Source: Ruminococcus sp. AF46-10NS (lineage in GTDB: Bacteria > Bacillota > Clostridia > Lachnospirales > Lachnospiraceae). Taken from it: a DNA stretch of 64,000 nucleotides. Under the pieces are notes generated by a model, which had not been told where the DNA came from, searched no databases, and worked only from the letters and a program-made list of their open reading frames with translations. Both the position numbers and the translations under genes were made by a program. Positions 37,076-44,226 of this stretch are shown in pieces; position 1 is the stretch's first letter, and each line of letters begins with the position of its first letter. The stretch spans positions 53,902 to 117,901 of the forward strand of contig NZ_QRNF01000007.1 of NCBI RefSeq assembly GCF_003474435.1, in the 5' to 3' direction.

Positions 37076-37254
37076 AAATACCTCTATCCTTACTATTTAT
37101 AATTGTAATTTCAAAAAATCAATGGAATTTTATACAGCCCGACATGGCTGTACTGGTGTCTGAACCGTTATTGAACGTAAAATGATTATGATAATAATAT
37201 ACACCATTTCTGAAGCAATGCAAGAAATTTTTATCGACAATTTTATCCCCTGAC

Positions 37255-37294
37255 AAAAAAGGCCACCCGGAAGTAGAAAACTCCCGGGTGGCCG
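37255..37294 (-). terminator. Terminator of the zinc protease gene
   Basis: GGCCACCCGG (37261-37270) pairs with CCCGGGTGGCC (37283-37293). On the minus strand it is followed by TTTTTTG. Confidence 0.88.
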
Positions 37295-37307
37295 ACTATG
37301 TAATTAT

Positions 37308-38291
37308 TTATTTCCAAATTACTTTATAAACATTGATGATCTTATTCACCTGTGCATCTGTAACTTTTGCAAGTGCGTTCTTTACTGCTTCGTATGTCTG
37401 CGGACGCTGTGCCTTCAGCGCTGCCGGATTCTCCACATAATTCTGAACGGATTCTGCAAAATACTCAGACGCATTCTGTGTTGCATACGCTTTTCTGACA
37501 CCTGTAAATTTAGATTTCTCACTGTTGTAAACAGCTGCGAAAGAACTGGATTTATCAACATTTCCTGCAATAAATGCAAGATAATGTCCAAGTTCATGAT
37601 AGATGGTATCATCTGCATTCTGAAGTGTAATACTTCTTGTTCTTGCATCAAAGTAACCTGCATAGGAAACGCCTGGGTCAACAGTTACTGTAAATCCCAT
37701 TTTCTTATAGGCATTTAATACTTTGCTGTCCATCTTCGGTGCAACAGATGCTACATCTGCGATAGTATATTTCTCTTTTTTTACAGTTGTGCCTGCTGTT
37801 GTGTCCTTTGTGCCGGTTGTCTTGGCCGCTTCAACTGTTGTGGTTGTCTTTATTGTTGTGGTAACTTTCTGTGTCTGTACTACATTTTTGGATTTCCTGG
37901 TGTATTTCTGATTCACATCTGTCTGTACAGTTGTCTGCGTCTTTACTGTTGTTGTCTGATTCTGTTTGGTTGTCTTGGTCGATACTTTCTTTTTTGTTGG
38001 AAATTTCCTGGTATAAGTTTTCGTGGATGCTTTTTTTAACTTGATATTTTTCTTCGTTGTCTTACTTCTTCTGGTTGTCTTGGTTGTTACCTTCGGCCGT
38101 GAAGCAAGCGGTGTGTCATCATCTTCGATAGTCTGCTCAATTACCGGATCTGTATAATTCGGAAGTTCCGGAACCTGTGAGTCCTGCCATACCATTGACA
38201 GACTTCCTGCCGTAAGCAGTACCGCTGCCGTAATACATCCTGCTGCCATCTTCTTATTTTTAAAGAATTTTTTTAAGTTTATTTTCTTCAT
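37308..38291 (-). CDS. Secreted M34/PPEP-like zinc metalloprotease
   Basis: A 327-residue exported protein. A signal or anchor helix (about residues 14-33) is followed by a long Lys/Thr-rich stalk (about 60-175, full of KTT, TKK and QTTV). The last ~130 residues form a small gluzincin domain with YHELGHYL as the HExxH motif and EYFAES as the third zinc ligand. The tail LKAQRPQTYEAVKNALAK closely recalls the end of C. difficile PPEP-1 (Zmp1), a Pro-Pro endopeptidase. A c-di-GMP-I riboswitch precedes it, as it does PPEP-1. A Lys-rich stalk could bind the wall. Substrate specificity is inference. Confidence 0.8.
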   Translation of the reverse strand: MKKINLKKFFKNKKMAAGCITAAVLLTAGSLSMVWQDSQVPELPNYTDPVIEQTIEDDDTPLASRPKVTTKTTRRSKTTKKNIKLKKASTKTYTRKFPTKKKVSTKTTKQNQTTTVKTQTTVQTDVNQKYTRKSKNVVQTQKVTTTIKTTTTVEAAKTTGTKDTTAGTTVKKEKYTIADVASVAPKMDSKVLNAYKKMGFTVTVDPGVSYAGYFDARTRSITLQNADDTIYHELGHYLAFIAGNVDKSSSFAAVYNSEKSKFTGVRKAYATQNASEYFAESVQNYVENPAALKAQRPQTYEAVKNALAKVTDAQVNKIINVYKVIWK

Positions 38292-38364
38292 ACATTTTCA
38301 CACCTTTCTGAAAACGAGGCGTCTCAGCTGTCATCTTTACTGGTGGCCGCAGGTTTATTGCATC

Positions 38365-38393
38365 AAAAAAACCGCTTATTCTAAAATAAACGG
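38365..38393 (-). terminator. Terminator in the riboswitch expression platform
   Basis: On the minus strand CCGTTTATT pairs with AATAAGCGG (one G-U pair), followed by seven T residues (38371-38365). It lies between the aptamer and the protease start codon, about 70 bases from the aptamer and 75 from the ATG, so it suits transcriptional control. Confidence 0.8.
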
Positions 38394-38460
38394 CCGCGTC
38401 AACACATAAATCCTTTTTCACCTGAATGATGCTTAAGTACGTCACTAAATCGGATTTAGT

Positions 38461-38550
38461 GCGGCAACCGGCTGTCATAGTCATTTAACTGTAATTTTCT
38501 GTGACCTTAGACCCTTGGCTTTGCGTCCCTGTCTTTCAACAGGTTTGCCT
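38461..38550 (-). promoter_or_regulatory. Cyclic di-GMP-I (GEMM-I) riboswitch
   Basis: Read on the minus strand: GGCAAACC (38549-38542), hairpin CCTGT-TGAAAG-ACAGG with the GAAA tetraloop, the hallmark GGGACGCAAAGCC, then GGGTCTAAGG, a second hairpin arm, and GACAGCCGGTTGCCG, which closes P1. These are the conserved core elements of the class. A CACTAAATC/GATTTAGTG hairpin and a terminator follow. It should switch the zinc protease gene in response to cyclic di-GMP; by analogy with C. difficile PPEP-1 an OFF switch is likely. Confidence 0.94.
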
Positions 38551-38560
38551 TTATATATAC

Positions 38561-38589
38561 AGTATATGGTGTTTTCCCTGAAATGTCAA
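38561..38589 (-). promoter_or_regulatory. Riboswitch promoter
   Basis: TTGACA (38589-38584), exactly 17 bases, TATACT (38566-38561). Transcription would start about four bases before the aptamer. Confidence 0.9.
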
Positions 38590-38639
38590 CATTTTCCCCC
38601 TGATTTTAAGCCCTGCTTCTGTCCTTTTTTTTCATAATC

Positions 38640-38648
38640 TGCTATACT
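38640..38648 (+). promoter_or_regulatory. Extended -10 promoter of the transglutaminase/pilus unit
   Basis: TGC-TATACT at 38640-38648 with no good -35 box. The leader is about 45 bases. It is back to back with the riboswitch promoter. Confidence 0.5.
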
Positions 38649-38699
38649 GTTTTCTATAAAAAAGATGAAAAACACTTTATAAACAGGAGAACGGCAAAT

Positions 38700-39623
38700 A
38701 TGTCTAAATTCTTATCTGTCCGTCTCTTTTTTGTACTGCTGCTTTCCGGGATCCTGGTGTTCCTCTCAGGCTGCGGTAAATCTGCCGGATCCGGCAAAGA
38801 ACCGCCGACTTATTCACCTGCACAGGTTCTCACCCCGGAAGCCCCCGGCAAACAGACCCTCGGAAATCCTCCTCTGATCCTGGATATTTCCAATCAGGAT
38901 CAGGGTTATTTCACTGCCTTGTCTGATTCCGGTGATTCCCGTATGAACATTCAGCTTACCACGCCCTCAGGAGTACTCTATTCCTATTTTCTGGAACCGA
39001 AAAAACAGGCTGTTCTGCCTTTTTCCGAAGGCTCCGGCGATTATCTAGTCACCTGCTACCAGCAGATTGACGGAAGCCAGTATGCAGCCCTCTATACAGA
39101 AACCTTAACTGTGAAGCTTGAAAATGAATTTCTTCCGTTTCTGTATCCGAACCAGTACGTGGATTTTTCCAAAGACAGCCAGGTCTGCAGTGAAGCAAAA
39201 TCTCTTGTCACAAAGGATATGAATGATGTGGACATCCTGAAAGCTGTCTATAAATATGTGATCAATAATGTCACTTACGATTACGACAAGGCCGATTCTG
39301 TAGAAGCCGGTTATCTTCCGGATGTTGACGACACACTTTCCTCTGGTACAGGCATCTGTTTCGACTACGCAGCACTGACCGCTGCCATGCTCCGAAGCCA
39401 GGACATTCCCTGCAAACTGGAGATCGGCTATTCCGGCGATATCAAACACGCCTGGATCGATGTCTATATCAGAAACAAAGGCTGGGTCACAAAGGCCATT
39501 TCTTTTGAAGGAGATACCTGGAAGCTGATGGACCCCACCTTTGATTCCAACAGTGACGACAATGAAGCCATTCAGGATTATATCGGAGACGAAAGCAATT
39601 ATACGGTACAGTTCACCTACTGA
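38700..39623 (+). CDS. Transglutaminase-like lipoprotein
   Basis: A 307-residue exported lipoprotein with a signal peptide and lipobox FLSGC (Cys about residue 25). The C-terminal half is a transglutaminase-core domain. Its catalytic Cys is in GTGICFDYAALTAAML, the His in KHAWIDVYI, and the Asp likely in LMDPTFDS. Members act as proteases, peptide-bond or crosslinking enzymes at the cell surface. It starts at ATG 38700 behind AGGAG, 31 bases ahead of pilC, and probably belongs to the pilus operon. Confidence 0.85.
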   Translation: MSKFLSVRLFFVLLLSGILVFLSGCGKSAGSGKEPPTYSPAQVLTPEAPGKQTLGNPPLILDISNQDQGYFTALSDSGDSRMNIQLTTPSGVLYSYFLEPKKQAVLPFSEGSGDYLVTCYQQIDGSQYAALYTETLTVKLENEFLPFLYPNQYVDFSKDSQVCSEAKSLVTKDMNDVDILKAVYKYVINNVTYDYDKADSVEAGYLPDVDDTLSSGTGICFDYAALTAAMLRSQDIPCKLEIGYSGDIKHAWIDVYIRNKGWVTKAISFEGDTWKLMDPTFDSNSDDNEAIQDYIGDESNYTVQFTY

Positions 39624-39654: not shown

Positions 39655-40697
39655 ATGAAATATAAACTGACGGCCTGGAACTCAAAAATTTCTGCGGGCA
39701 GATGGGAATGCTTCTGCATTCCGGCATATCCACAACAGAAGGGCTGCACATCCTCTGTGACGAAAGCAGAACAGATACAGACAGGGAAATTCTGGAACCT
39801 CTGATCCGTTCCGTCGAAGAAACCGGCTCCCTTTCCCAGGCTCTTGAGGAAGCCGGCTGTTTTCCAAAATCCATGACTGCCTATGTAAGAGCCGGCGAGG
39901 AAACCGGCTGCCTGGACGAAATTATGGAAAGCCTTTACCTTCACTATGAGCAGGAACAGGAAATTTCACAGCAGATCCGGAGTGCAGTCACTTATCCCCT
40001 TATCATGCTGGGAATGATGGCCGTTGTAATCCTTGTCCTCCTGGTAAAAGTCCTTCCTGTTTTTCAGCAGGTATTCACACAGATGGGAATGGAGATGAAC
40101 GGAGTATCCCGGGGACTTTTAAATGCCGGAAATGTGATCAGACACTACTCTGTGGTTTTTATGATCCTGGCCGCTGTACTGATCGGCTGCATCCTGTTTT
40201 TCAGCCTTACGGAAAAAGGCCGCCAGAATCTTAGCCAGCTGATAACCCATCTTCCGGTATTCCGTGAGATCCCGGTTGCCATGGATTACAGCCGCCTGGC
40301 CCAGGGACTGTCTCTTGGCCTTAAAAGTGGTCTTTCCCCGGAAACCACCCTGGAACTTACCAGGTCCCTGCTGACTCAGCCCGAGATTCTTGACCGCCTG
40401 AAAAAAACCTCTGTACTTCTTGATGAAGGTGAAGCCTTTTCCAGAGCTCTCACCGAATCAGAGCTCTTTGGCGGCATGGAAGGACGTCTTGTCAACATTT
40501 CCTTTTATTCCGGCACCAGTGACGAAACTTTTCGCCAGCTTTCCCGGCAGTACACGGAAAAATCCCTGGATCTGATCTCACAGGCTGTTTCTGTTATAGA
40601 GCCTACCATTGTGATCCTTCTTTCTCTTCTTGTAGGTCTTGTACTGCTTTCTGTGATGATGCCACTTCTGGGCATCCTCTCGGATTTTGCAATGTAA
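39655..40697 (+). CDS. Type II secretion/type IV pilus inner-membrane platform (PilC/GspF), frameshifted
   Basis: PilC is the membrane platform that couples the cytoplasmic ATPase to pilin assembly. With one base restored near 39674 (GGCCTGGAA for GGCCCTGGAA) the protein has 347 residues from ATG 39655 (site AAGGAG). It then shows the family start LKNFCGQMGMLLHSGIST, two GspF domains (GSLSQALEEAG and GEAFSRALTES) and three helices, the last being IVILLSLLVGLVLLSVMMPLL. It is shorter than the usual ~400. A start at 39702 within the gene would lack conserved residues. Confidence 0.88.
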
Positions 40698-40709: not shown

Positions 40710-41066
40710 ATGGAACTTTTTGAAAACCGCAGAAAAAAATTCCTGAGAAGTCTTCTGCTTCTTTTTCCGGTGCTGTTTCTGGTCATAGCCTGTATCCTGT
40801 TTACTGCAGGTGTCGGCCGCACTTCCGGAAAAACCCTTTTGCAGGAACAAAACGCCCTGGAACAGACATTAAAAAGCTGTGCTGTCCGCACCTATGCCAT
40901 GACCGGGGAATACCCTGAGGATCTTTCCCAGCTTCTTGATGACTACCACATCACCTATGACAAAACCCGGTTCGTGGTAGAGTACGTTCCCAATGGTTCC
41001 AACCTTCTGCCATCTGTCAGCGTGATCGCCCTGAACGGAAGCCGGAAAGGAGGAACCGCCTCATGA
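40710..41066 (+). CDS. Small membrane protein of pilus operon
   Basis: A 118-residue protein with one N-terminal helix (SLLLLFPVLFLVIACILFTAGV) and an outer domain with pilin-like spacing: LEQTLKSCAVRTYAMTGEYPEDLSQLLDDY resembles the start of minor pseudopilins. No prepilin-peptidase motif (G/FxxxE) is clear. The start is ATG 40710 after AAGGTGG. It overlaps the next gene by four bases (ATGA). Confidence 0.65.
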   Translation: MELFENRRKKFLRSLLLLFPVLFLVIACILFTAGVGRTSGKTLLQEQNALEQTLKSCAVRTYAMTGEYPEDLSQLLDDYHITYDKTRFVVEYVPNGSNLLPSVSVIALNGSRKGGTAS

Positions 41067-41584
41067 AACAGCAGAAAACCAACGGACATTCCATCTCCTC
41101 ACTGTTTTCCCTTCTTCTGTTCGGGATCTTCGCCCTGTTCCTTATGCTGATGCTTTTGTTTTCTGCAAGAGTTTATCAGAATACTATGGAACAGACAGAT
41201 TCTGACACTGACTTTGGGACAGCAGTCACATATCTCACTACCAAATTCCGTCAGCATGACCAGACAGACGGGATCTTTACCGGCACCCTGGACGGCACGC
41301 CTGCGCTGTGTTTCCGGGATCACATAAAAGATAAGGATTATATCACTTATATTTACCTGAAAGATGAGAATCTGATGGAACTTTTTACTGCTTCGGATTC
41401 TCAGGCAAACTCTTCTGCCGGCACTGCCATCGCAGCACTTTCAGACTTCCAGACAGAAAAAATGGAACACGGATTTTACCGCATCACGCTCAAAAGCACA
41501 GCAGGAATTTCTTCCAGATTTCTTCTTCACATTACAGCCGCTGATGCAGCACAGCCCACAGTAAAAAAGGAGGCCTCCTCATGA
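41063..41584 (+). CDS. DUF4860-like membrane protein of pilus operon
   Basis: A 173-residue protein with one N-terminal helix (SLFSLLLFGIFALFLMLMLLFSARVY) and an extracytoplasmic domain. It resembles the DUF4860 family found in Clostridial pilus-type loci. Start and stop overlap its neighbours by ATGA, so translation is coupled. Likely a pseudopilin-like accessory part; the role is unproven. Confidence 0.68.
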   Translation: MKQQKTNGHSISSLFSLLLFGIFALFLMLMLLFSARVYQNTMEQTDSDTDFGTAVTYLTTKFRQHDQTDGIFTGTLDGTPALCFRDHIKDKDYITYIYLKDENLMELFTASDSQANSSAGTAIAALSDFQTEKMEHGFYRITLKSTAGISSRFLLHITAADAAQPTVKKEASS

Positions 41585-42033
41585 AAAAATTACAGCAAAA
41601 CTTTGGAAGCAGCCTTTTTCTCATGGAGATGATCCTGGCACTTCTGTTCCTGTCCCTCTCCTGTGCAACCTGCATTCAGATCTTTGCGGCAGCAAGGTCA
41701 AACAGGATCAGGGCAGAACAGCTGAACCAGCTCCAGACACTGACTACTTCTGTCGGCGAAGCACTGGAAGGCACAGACGGTTCCGCTGATGAAATTTTAG
41801 AGCTTATTCCGGATGGTGTTCAGGAAGATCCAGAAATTAACTGGTATTATGACAACGCCTGGAAGATATGTCCTCGGGACAGCGCAGTCTACGTGATGAC
41901 TTTCACACCGGATACTTCTTCTCCGGAAAAATCAGGCACACTTACTTTCTGCCGGACTTCTGATAACACAGAGCTTTACCAGATTTCCCTCCGCTTTCCT
42001 GCCTGTGATTTCGGAAAGGAGGATTCGAAATGA
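41581..42033 (+). CDS. Prepilin-like protein of pilus operon
   Basis: A 150-residue protein whose N-terminus (QQNFGSSLFLMEMILALLFLSLSCATC) has a short basic leader and a hydrophobic helix with an internal Glu, reminiscent of type IV pilins, although the cleavage motif is not canonical. The rest is a small soluble domain with cysteines near positions 100 and 130. It overlaps both neighbours by four bases. Confidence 0.62.
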   Translation: MKKLQQNFGSSLFLMEMILALLFLSLSCATCIQIFAAARSNRIRAEQLNQLQTLTTSVGEALEGTDGSADEILELIPDGVQEDPEINWYYDNAWKICPRDSAVYVMTFTPDTSSPEKSGTLTFCRTSDNTELYQISLRFPACDFGKEDSK

Positions 42034-42518
42034 AACAAAAACATTATTTTTTTGTAACTGTTGGAATCCCTTCCCTGTTTCTGATTTTTTCTGTTCTGGT
42101 ACTTTCTGTTCTGGCTCTGCTTACCCTCGGAAGCTCCAGAAACAGCCTGAACACAGCAAAACATTCTCTGGAGCAGACGGAGAAATATTACAAAGCCTGC
42201 TCCAGTGCCACAGAAACCGTATCACAGATCCGAAGTTGGGCCGGCAAGTTTGCAGAAGAATCTGCAAGTGAAGAAGAATATTTTTCCCAACTCAGTCAGT
42301 TCGCGGATACTGAAGGCGCTCTTACCTGGGACTCCGCCAAGCATACTCTTTCTTTCTCGAAAAAGATCTCAGATACCCAGCAGCTTTCCGTTATTCTGGA
42401 GCTTCTTTATCCGGCAGAAAAAAACACCCAGGCTCTTAATGTCCTTCAGTGGAATACAGAGCTCACAGATTCATGGACACCTGACAACAGCCAGAATATA
42501 TTTAAAGGAGGCAAATGA
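42030..42518 (+). CDS. Single-helix protein of pilus operon
   Basis: A 162-residue protein with one N-terminal helix (GIPSLFLIFSVLVLSVLALLTL), a helical stretch (residues 35-85) and a small C-terminal domain. I do not recognise a family. The gene overlaps those on both sides (ATGA), which ties it to the pilus machinery. It could be a minor pilin or an alignment-complex part. Confidence 0.6.
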   Translation: MKQKHYFFVTVGIPSLFLIFSVLVLSVLALLTLGSSRNSLNTAKHSLEQTEKYYKACSSATETVSQIRSWAGKFAEESASEEEYFSQLSQFADTEGALTWDSAKHTLSFSKKISDTQQLSVILELLYPAEKNTQALNVLQWNTELTDSWTPDNSQNIFKGGK

Positions 42519-43582
42519 GCATGGACACCCAAATCCCTGAATTCTTAACAGAAGCCGCCAACAAACGTGTTTCTGATATCTTTATCATTGCAGGCCGCAC
42601 ACTGGCCGAAAAGATCGACGGCCATCTTTTCAGCATCGGAGAAAGGCTGATGCCGGAACAGACAGAATCATTGCTGCGCACCATCTACAAACTTGCAGGA
42701 AACCGTGATATGTCAAAACTTCTGGAAACCGGCGACGATGACTTTTCGTTTTCCATTTCCGGTGTTTCCCGCTTCCGCGTCAATGCTTACAAACAGCGTG
42801 GTTCCCTTGCAGCTGTGATCCGTGTGATCGCTTTCCGGCTGCCTGATCCGGCAGAGCTTATGATCCCGGATGACGTTATGAACATTACCGGCTATACCCG
42901 TGGAATGGTTCTTGTGACAGGTTCTGCCGGAAGTGGTAAATCCACCACTATGGCCTGCCTGATCGACCGAATCAACCATACACGTGAGGGACATATCATT
43001 ACCCTGGAAGACCCTCTTGAGTACCTGCACCGCCACGACCGATGCATTGTAAGCCAGCGTGAGATCTGTACAGATACTGAAAGCTATCTTACTTCTCTGC
43101 GTGCCACACTCCGGCAGAGCCCTGATGTGATCCTTCTTGGCGAAATGCGTGATTATGAGACGATCCAGACTGCAATGACTGCTGCTGAGACCGGTCATCT
43201 GGTTCTTTCCAGTCTTCATACTCTTGGAGCTGCCAATACGATCGAACGTATTATGGATGTGTTTGAACCGTCACAACAGCGCCAGATTGCCATTCAGCTT
43301 TCCATGGTGCTCCAGGCCGTGATCTCCCAGCAGCTGATCCCGGATGTGGACGGCCGCAATATCCCTGTTTTTGAGGTCATGCGACTGACACCTGCCATCC
43401 GTAATATGATCCGCGACAACAAAATCCACCAGATTGAAGGCGTGATCTCCACCTCCAGCCAGGATCAGATGCGTTCCATGGACCAGAGTCTTCTTGAACT
43501 GTATCGAAAAAAACGTATCACCAGGGATACCGCTTTGAAATATGCTATGAATCCGGAGATGCTGAAGCGAAAACTGATGTAA
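42515..43582 (+). CDS. PilT-type secretion ATPase
   Basis: About 353-355 residues. This hexameric cytoplasmic ATPase retracts (PilT) or powers type IV pili. It has the N-terminal PAS-like domain, Walker A GSAGSGKST (about residue 135), the Asp box (ITLEDPLEYLH), Walker B (VILLGEMRDYETI) and the His box (TGHLVLSSLHT). The spacing and the short N-terminal domain favour PilT over PilB. Two starts are possible: ATG 42515 or ATG 42521, which has the better-spaced AGGAGG. No second ATPase, prepilin peptidase or major pilin is visible. Confidence 0.88.
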   Translation: MSMDTQIPEFLTEAANKRVSDIFIIAGRTLAEKIDGHLFSIGERLMPEQTESLLRTIYKLAGNRDMSKLLETGDDDFSFSISGVSRFRVNAYKQRGSLAAVIRVIAFRLPDPAELMIPDDVMNITGYTRGMVLVTGSAGSGKSTTMACLIDRINHTREGHIITLEDPLEYLHRHDRCIVSQREICTDTESYLTSLRATLRQSPDVILLGEMRDYETIQTAMTAAETGHLVLSSLHTLGAANTIERIMDVFEPSQQRQIAIQLSMVLQAVISQQLIPDVDGRNIPVFEVMRLTPAIRNMIRDNKIHQIEGVISTSSQDQMRSMDQSLLELYRKKRITRDTALKYAMNPEMLKRKLM

Positions 43583-43725: not shown

Positions 43726-44226
43726 TTAATGTACCACATTTCCCACAATTCCATAGGAAACAACATACATGATAACAGTTGCCATCACCAGTCCGCAAAA
43801 GATAGCGATAGATGATTTCTTGATATCCACCTCGAGAAGAGATGCGATCAGAGATCCTGTCCAGGCGCCTGTACCCGGCAGCGGGATTCCTACGAACAAC
43901 AGAAGCCCGAGGAATTCATATCTCTTGATCTGATCACTTTTTCCCATAGCTCTGTTCTCCAGCTTAACGATCAGACCTCTGAAAAGCTTCGTCTTTTTTA
44001 ACCATTTAAAGATCTGCCTGATAAAAAGCAGGATAAACGGGATCGGAATAATATTTCCCGCAATACAGATCGGAATTGCCTTTACAGCCGGAATCTTCAG
44101 AAGTGATGCAGCCAGAAGACCGCCTCGAAGCTCCAGGATTGGGATCATGGAAATGATGAACACCGCACCCTCCGGAGAAATAAACTGTGAAAGGTGGGTT
44201 GAAAACCACTGTACAAGTACTTCCAT
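43726..44226 (-). CDS. Putative small multidrug export-like membrane protein (COG2426)
   Basis: A 166-residue membrane protein with about four helices and the family motifs ILELRGGLLAA and GIPLPGTGAWTGSLIA. It belongs to the family named 'putative small multi-drug export' (PF06695). The name rests on little evidence and the substrate is unknown. It starts 12 bases after the hisC stop and is probably co-transcribed with it. Confidence 0.82.
   Translation of the reverse strand: MEVLVQWFSTHLSQFISPEGAVFIISMIPILELRGGLLAASLLKIPAVKAIPICIAGNIIPIPFILLFIRQIFKWLKKTKLFRGLIVKLENRAMGKSDQIKRYEFLGLLLFVGIPLPGTGAWTGSLIASLLEVDIKKSSIAIFCGLVMATVIMYVVSYGIVGNVVH

Follow-up and report, generated by a model that had tools for sequence, protein, structure and literature searches.

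What does a cyclic di-GMP (c-di-GMP) riboswitch control when it stands ahead of a putative exported zinc protease in a gut commensal? The question is raised by a 64,000-nt stretch of Ruminococcus sp. AF46-10NS (contig NZ_QRNF01000007.1, positions 53,902 to 117,901; hereafter, the window), in which a preliminary description had recognised a class I (GEMM-I) riboswitch before a protease resembling PPEP-1 (Zmp1, CD2830) of Clostridioides difficile. The answer we arrive at, and to which we give an even chance, is that the riboswitch acts as an OFF switch for an M34 zinc protease of the cell envelope, which sheds the product of the neighbouring gene, a divergent transglutaminase-fold lipoprotein (TG-LP). 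Coordinates are collected in Table 1; loci and genomes used for comparison carry L and G numbers.

Riboswitch and expression platform

The riboswitch is virtually certain to be genuine. Scored against Rfam, the aptamer covers the full RF01051 model (positions 1-87), far above the gathering score of 35, and is the only match in the window among those listed at that score. The promoter and the terminator that the preliminary description had placed before and behind it are both present. Although promoter-like and terminator-like sites in 37150-38760 are near chance in number (six versus 3.7 +/- 1.7 and three versus 1.6 +/- 1.4 in shuffles, respectively), we consider the two elements credible because the promoter, top-ranked of the six sites, matches 11 of 12 consensus bases and because together they flank the aptamer.

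The direction of the switch can be approached through the complementarity between the aptamer 3' strand (CGGUUGCCGCA in the window and in most relatives) and the 5' flank of the terminator (UGACGCGGCCG in the window), which could pair as an antiterminator; in the window 9 of 11 pairs form, with a duplex energy of -10.7 kcal/mol. We compared 25 aptamer loci (the window, 23 of the genus and one of another genus), in 20 of which the terminator is readable; L064, L065, L067, L076 and L092, where it is not, were left out of the count. All 20 readable loci pair over 8 to 11 of the 11 nt, and the paired flank ends in the opening bases of the terminator stem. Since three of the 11 pairs are fixed by the way in which stems were found (via CCG), the remaining eight positions are the fairer control, and there the mean is 7.25 pairs. 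No alternative 8-mer of the same leader matches the pairing over these eight positions in 15 of the 20 loci, and in 15 of the 20 the pair count is equalled by 5% or less of the shuffles of the same letters. Over the loci the aptamer strand takes only five sequence forms and the terminator flank 14; this near-constancy of one strand speaks for kept complementarity more than for two-sided covariation.

As the proposed antiterminator shares bases with the terminator stem, binding of the ligand would be expected to promote termination, and a c-di-GMP OFF switch is, on these pairings, the likely reading, with an expression platform that is predicted to be coupled to the aptamer across relatives and suggestive in the window itself. 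The regulatory parallel to PPEP-1 drawn in the preliminary description holds in this respect. An ON switch, or a riboswitch without any role in the protease gene, might be imagined from the class I riboswitch of Bacillus thuringiensis, which a passage of PMC6366702 contrasts with the OFF switches of C. difficile, and from the weakness of the antiterminator in the window lineage: taken alone, the window pairing (6 of 8 pairs, equalled by 9% of shuffles) is not beyond chance, and neither is that of its nearest relatives L061-L063 or of L085. Such a reading sits poorly with the complementarity, which extends into the terminator stem in every one of the 20 loci and is clear in 15 of them, and we regard it as quite improbable. 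As for the ligand, GGDEF domains were found in all nine genomes searched, so c-di-GMP is likely made.

Immediately 3' of the aptamer lies a perfect hairpin, CACTAAATC/GATTTAGTG (38443-38461, minus strand), similar in several relatives, which could belong to the expression platform. Class I c-di-GMP riboswitches number nine, 11 and eight in the Blautia genomes G223, G224 and G263, respectively; no class II c-di-GMP riboswitch was found in the genus by a search whose control was silent too.

The predicted protease and its beta domain

The gene behind the leader encodes a protein that carries the two features picked out in the preliminary description, HELGH and a C-terminal FAES...RPQTYEAVKNALAK pattern. 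Its C-terminal domain reaches the Pfam family ATLF (PF07737, M34) at 34.2 bits (cut-off 27.4), and the model of this domain superposes on PPEP/M34 structures; as modelled, the catalytic domain has an M34/PPEP-type fold. With a hydrophobic stretch at its N terminus, the protein may be either secreted, as the preliminary description had it, or anchored. Organism-named homologues of the protease are few and all from Blautia, in agreement with the Lachnospiraceae-type genome proposed earlier.

Over 42 aligned rows H232, E233, G235 and E276 are invariant and L234, H236 and Y269 are kept in at least 90%. Y269 and E276 lie 33 and 40 residues after the second His, the same spacing as in PPEP-3, for which PMC12828418 describes Tyr190 in the oxyanion hole and Glu197 as third zinc ligand. 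Judged by these residues the protein is very probably an active metalloprotease. It could alternatively bind without cutting, as a catalytically silent relative whose beta domain works at the cell wall. There are precedents in CD1597 of C. difficile, inactive despite an HExxH in its PPEP-like domain according to a passage of PMC11460543, and in three Blautia paralogues (L007, L008 and L010) without an intact zinc motif; the retention of HExxH, Tyr and Glu in nearly all 42 rows makes a silent protein very improbable here.

Specificity is less firmly placed than activity. We lean towards Pro-Pro cleavage. The sequence profile prefers PPEP-1 over lethal factor (2.4e-7 vs 0.0016), whereas lethal-factor structures come slightly ahead of those of the PPEPs (VIA Z 15.0 vs 13.7). 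Identity is 21-23% to PPEP-1 over the aligned part and 15-22% to PPEP-2 (Paenibacillus alvei) and PPEP-3 (Geobacillus thermodenitrificans). Phe240 and Ala270 fall, by spacing from HExxH and Tyr, at the cited S2 and S2' pocket positions of PPEP-1/2/3, and the nearly invariant Y210 stands 22 residues before HExxH, compared, by spacing, with 40 for Tyr113 of PPEP-3, an S-loop aromatic (Trp103/Tyr113). We speak of a putative PPEP-like enzyme, which probably works as PPEPs do; the cautious name is chosen because the PPxP consensus is absent from the candidate substrate and because PPEP-3 leaves its neighbour's XXPPXX sites uncut.

Between the N-terminal hydrophobic segment and the catalytic domain the preliminary description had seen a Lys/Thr-rich stalk. 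The composition is as described: residues 65-155 are strongly basic, with 26 Lys and Arg, 2 Asp and Glu and 29 Thr among 91. A plain stalk is not what AlphaFold2 predicts, however. In the models, long strands within residues 67-153 form a sheet; block means are 76-93 over residues 71-150 at full length and 86-98 over the strands when the region is modelled alone (five models alike), so that the segment is probably a folded beta domain. Eight positions are invariant in a 39-row alignment of the domain alone; there is no clear match among solved or viral structures, and a search of 64 genomes of the genus matched only the two readable proteases. This conserved beta domain is a new domain, which may serve as a wall-binding spacer.

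The three Blautia paralogues (L007, 1477-2340; L008, 1465-2655; L010, 745-2052) lie on loci without a riboswitch, one has a different N-terminal half, and from their sequences they look like pseudo-enzymes.

TG-LP as the candidate substrate

Where might such an enzyme cut? In place of an LPXTG adhesin, the candidate target is the adjacent TG-LP, encoded at the head of a pilus-like operon. This protein has a lipidated Cys, a short variable Ser/Gly/Asn-rich linker, the segment EPPVYSP or a close variant and then VLVPEAPG, which is partly common to other genera. Among 299 genomes of the family, 102 contain TG-LP at an E value of at most 1e-20. We read the 30 best matches of the genus (L061-L090, with L152 of G230 next in rank) and, from the 102 genomes with a match, 29 new loci of other genera, and built a tree of 59 core rows with the linker removed, L119 (in-frame stop) and L152 not being included.

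A single clade of 28 rows, with full support, contains the motif [EVLA]PP[VSLAT][YFI] in 26 of them. None of the 31 rows outside it has the motif, although four (L095, L100, L108 and L112) have, by eye, another Pro-Pro in the linker. Conservation at the two Pro positions is 26 and 27 of the 28 clade rows; linker columns from Cys to motif are common to half of the rows or fewer, the Gly beside the Cys excepted (20 of 27). The 26 Pro-Pro sites use nine different codon pairs. Among the best 120 of 6059 homologues of the window TG-LP, 118 have Pro-Pro at the site; 90 share one identical linker, and 21 of the 23 distinct linkers carry the prolines.

The riboswitch largely follows the same division. 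Of the 27 loci that the genus contributes to the motif clade, 23 have it beside TG-LP, and in the other four genomes it lies elsewhere, twice on the same contig at about 10-12 kb (G237 and G215) and twice at contig ends. Outside the clade it stands beside TG-LP in one of 32 loci (L092). All three lineages in which the protease was read (the window, L005 and L006) have Pro-Pro in TG-LP. Gene adjacency has precedent, as PMC12828418 and PMC10413326 place the gene for one of the two PPEP-1 substrates and that for the PPEP-2 substrate next to the protease. Since the conserved Pro-Pro lies just behind the membrane anchor, the enzyme may shed TG-LP at low c-di-GMP; whether TG-LP is its substrate we hold, from these sequences, to be evenly balanced.

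The sequence of events that we propose is as follows. At low c-di-GMP the aptamer 3' strand would pair with the terminator flank, allowing read-through, and the protease would be produced and exported. Cleavage at the Pro-Pro bond of TG-LP, close behind the lipidated Cys, would then detach the transglutaminase domain from the membrane. High c-di-GMP would instead let the terminator form; no protease would be made, and TG-LP would remain membrane-bound with the pilus-like machine encoded downstream.

Several points weigh against this proposal, in addition to the chance-level pairing in the window and the inactive CD1597. The motif was defined after inspection of the sequences, and only three lineages gave a readable gene 3' of the riboswitch. 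PPEPs have a longer segment ahead of HExxH, so the presence of their proline-contacting S-loop is not assured here. The window site, EPPTY (relatives mostly have EPPVY or EPPVF), departs from the PPxP consensus, lacking a Pro at P3'; PPEP-3, as reported in a passage of PMC10413326, does not cut the XXPPXX sites of its neighbour. In favour of the site, the same source describes PPEP-2 as accepting substrates that lack Pro at both P2' and P3', provided that P2' is Val, which is the residue of most TG-LP motifs, the window having Thr. Motif and riboswitch coincide in one clade, so their association may reflect one origin and not independent events. L082 (ELPVF), L084 and L092 have the riboswitch and lack the motif. 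Finally, G230 has a riboswitch near rho (L058, 81.1 bits) without TG-LP alongside, and its only full-length TG-LP found, L152, is on another contig and has neither motif nor riboswitch; L152 precedes a PilC-like gene in an operon of the other-genus type.

Alternatively, the c-di-GMP-repressed M34 protease may have another target, be it a surface, pilin-like or outside protein, in which case its specificity need not be Pro-Pro and the EPPVY of TG-LP would be a structural or docking element. The slight lead of lethal-factor structures, the short S-loop segment, the missing PPxP in TG-LP, the three riboswitch loci without motif and the different type of TG-LP elsewhere in G230 all fit this alternative. 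The preference of the sequence profile for PPEP-1 does not, nor does the placing of the motif within an otherwise variable linker, by the lipid anchor and ahead of the part common to other genera. We consider another target a possibility to be taken seriously, albeit an unlikely one, and keep to TG-LP shedding.

Riboswitch-protease unit and TG-LP operon do not form a fixed block, given their separate places in G230 and the distance between riboswitch and TG-LP in G237 and G215. The unit can also be lost along with the operon, as indicated by G001, the nearest of the comparison genomes. This genome has HisC and the protein at 43726-44226 at 98% and 100% identity to those of the window; between them and rho only a TG-LP fragment is left, its riboswitch matches are on other contigs, and neither matches to the window PilC- or PilT-like proteins nor the protease were found in it.

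Table 1. Features of the locus, with positions in the window
Feature	Positions	Strand	Basis or detail
Promoter	38561..38589	-	TTGACA 38589-38584, 17 nt, TATACT 38566-38561
c-di-GMP-I (GEMM-I) riboswitch aptamer	38460..38559	-	RF01051, 81.2 bits, E 2.1e-14
Aptamer 3' strand CGGUUGCCGCA, proposed antiterminator arm 1	38460..38470	-	Complementary to terminator 5' flank
Terminator 5' flank UGACGCGGCCG, proposed antiterminator arm 2	38391..38401	-	Overlaps terminator stem
Intrinsic terminator of expression platform	38370..38395	-	11-pair stem-loop, then T tail; fold -10.3 kcal/mol
Protease gene, 327 aa	37308..38291	-	Open reading frame; N-terminal hydrophobic segment
Beta domain (residues 67-153), predicted	37833..38093	-	AlphaFold2, full length and region alone
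M34-type zinc-protease domain (about residues 174-323)	37323..37772	-	PF07737; PPEP-1 profile match; lethal-factor and PPEP structure matches
HELGH zinc-binding/catalytic motif (residues 232-236)	37584..37598	-	Sequence
Y269...E276	37464..37487	-	Equivalent in spacing to PPEP-3 Tyr190 in the oxyanion hole and to its third zinc ligand, Glu197
Terminator 3' of protease gene	37261..37293	-	14-pair stem, T tail
TG-LP gene, proposed substrate	38700..39623	+	PF01841, 69.1 bits; lipobox, linker
E-P-P-T-Y (TG-LP residues 34-38)	38799..38813	+	Proposed cut P35/P36, 10 residues behind lipidated Cys25
Peptide form proposed as protease target			SGKEPPTYSPAQ
PilC/GspF-like (T2SSF) gene	39702..40697	+	PF00482, 125.8 bits
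Four small pilus-like-operon genes, one DUF4860 (41063-41584)	40710..42518	+	Last three with strong N-terminal hydrophobic segments
PilT-family ATPase gene, closing the operon in the window	42515..43582	+	TIGR01420, 397.4 bits, cut-off 319.1

Known systems and the pilus-like operon

The locus is a well-conserved variant, in a commensal genus, of the C. difficile riboswitch-protease pair. As in C. difficile, an OFF-type class I riboswitch precedes an M34-fold zinc protease, and a candidate substrate with Pro-Pro near its surface anchor is encoded next door. The protease differs from PPEP-1 in its additional conserved beta domain and shorter pre-HExxH region, and where PPEP-1 has a sortase-anchored adhesin with PPxP sites, the candidate substrate here is a lipoprotein bearing a single site of the E-P-P-V-Y type. 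The match to the anthrax lethal factor family is weaker in sequence than that to PPEP-1 and, unlike in lethal factor, what remains of the 327-aa protein is the beta domain and a hydrophobic segment. A toxin should not be concluded from the Pfam name, and the locus cautions against that reading of 'lethal factor' annotations in commensals. A more distant likeness is to LapD/LapG of Pseudomonas fluorescens, where, as a passage of PMC3032545 has it, an adhesin leaves the surface upon c-di-GMP depletion. There the control is inside-out signalling via a protein receptor, in place of the riboswitch here. To our knowledge, the LapG family is not related to M34.

That in many Blautia intracellular c-di-GMP, acting through a riboswitch-controlled M34 protease with a new beta domain, sets whether TG-LP is membrane-held or shed is a proposal to which we give slightly less than an even chance. 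If true, the PPEP mode would gain a new kind of target, namely a transglutaminase lipoprotein from a pilus operon that is severed right next to its lipid anchor, along with E-P-P-V-Y/F as a new cleavage motif, and there would be a first hint of the role of TG-LP at the head of this Lachnospiraceae operon. PPEP-1 is the model of c-di-GMP-controlled shedding in a pathogen. For a commensal genus common in the gut there is now a likely counterpart, with a precisely placed candidate site and a candidate substrate tied to a pilus-like machine, which goes beyond the statement that homologues exist. No title on this system was found among the literature matches listed, a statement that does not extend to the text of a 2021 survey of the PPEP domain.

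The operon of the window has both a PilT-family ATPase and a PilC/GspF-like protein, although none of the NCBIfam PilC/GspF models reached its own cut-off with the latter. Across Blautia and other genera, 58 of the 59 loci have a PilC/GspF-like gene directly 3' of TG-LP; L090, the sole exception, is a shorter locus with little sequence beyond TG-LP. In the other-genus loci (L091-L119) TG-LP heads the PilC-like gene in 29 of 29. Organism-named homologues of TG-LP come from Blautia and one 'Eubacteriales bacterium'.

At 39655-39702 (plus strand) of the window, the start codon that follows a Shine-Dalgarno-like sequence seems to lie in a different frame from the PilC/GspF-like gene, whose first listed in-frame ATG falls within the part conserved in relatives; this could reflect an assembly error or a change at the level of the strain. 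In L069, L074 and L088-L090, which lack the riboswitch-protease unit or have it displaced, a gene resembling a BTAD/SARP-type regulator adjoins TG-LP and perhaps provides an alternative control of the operon.
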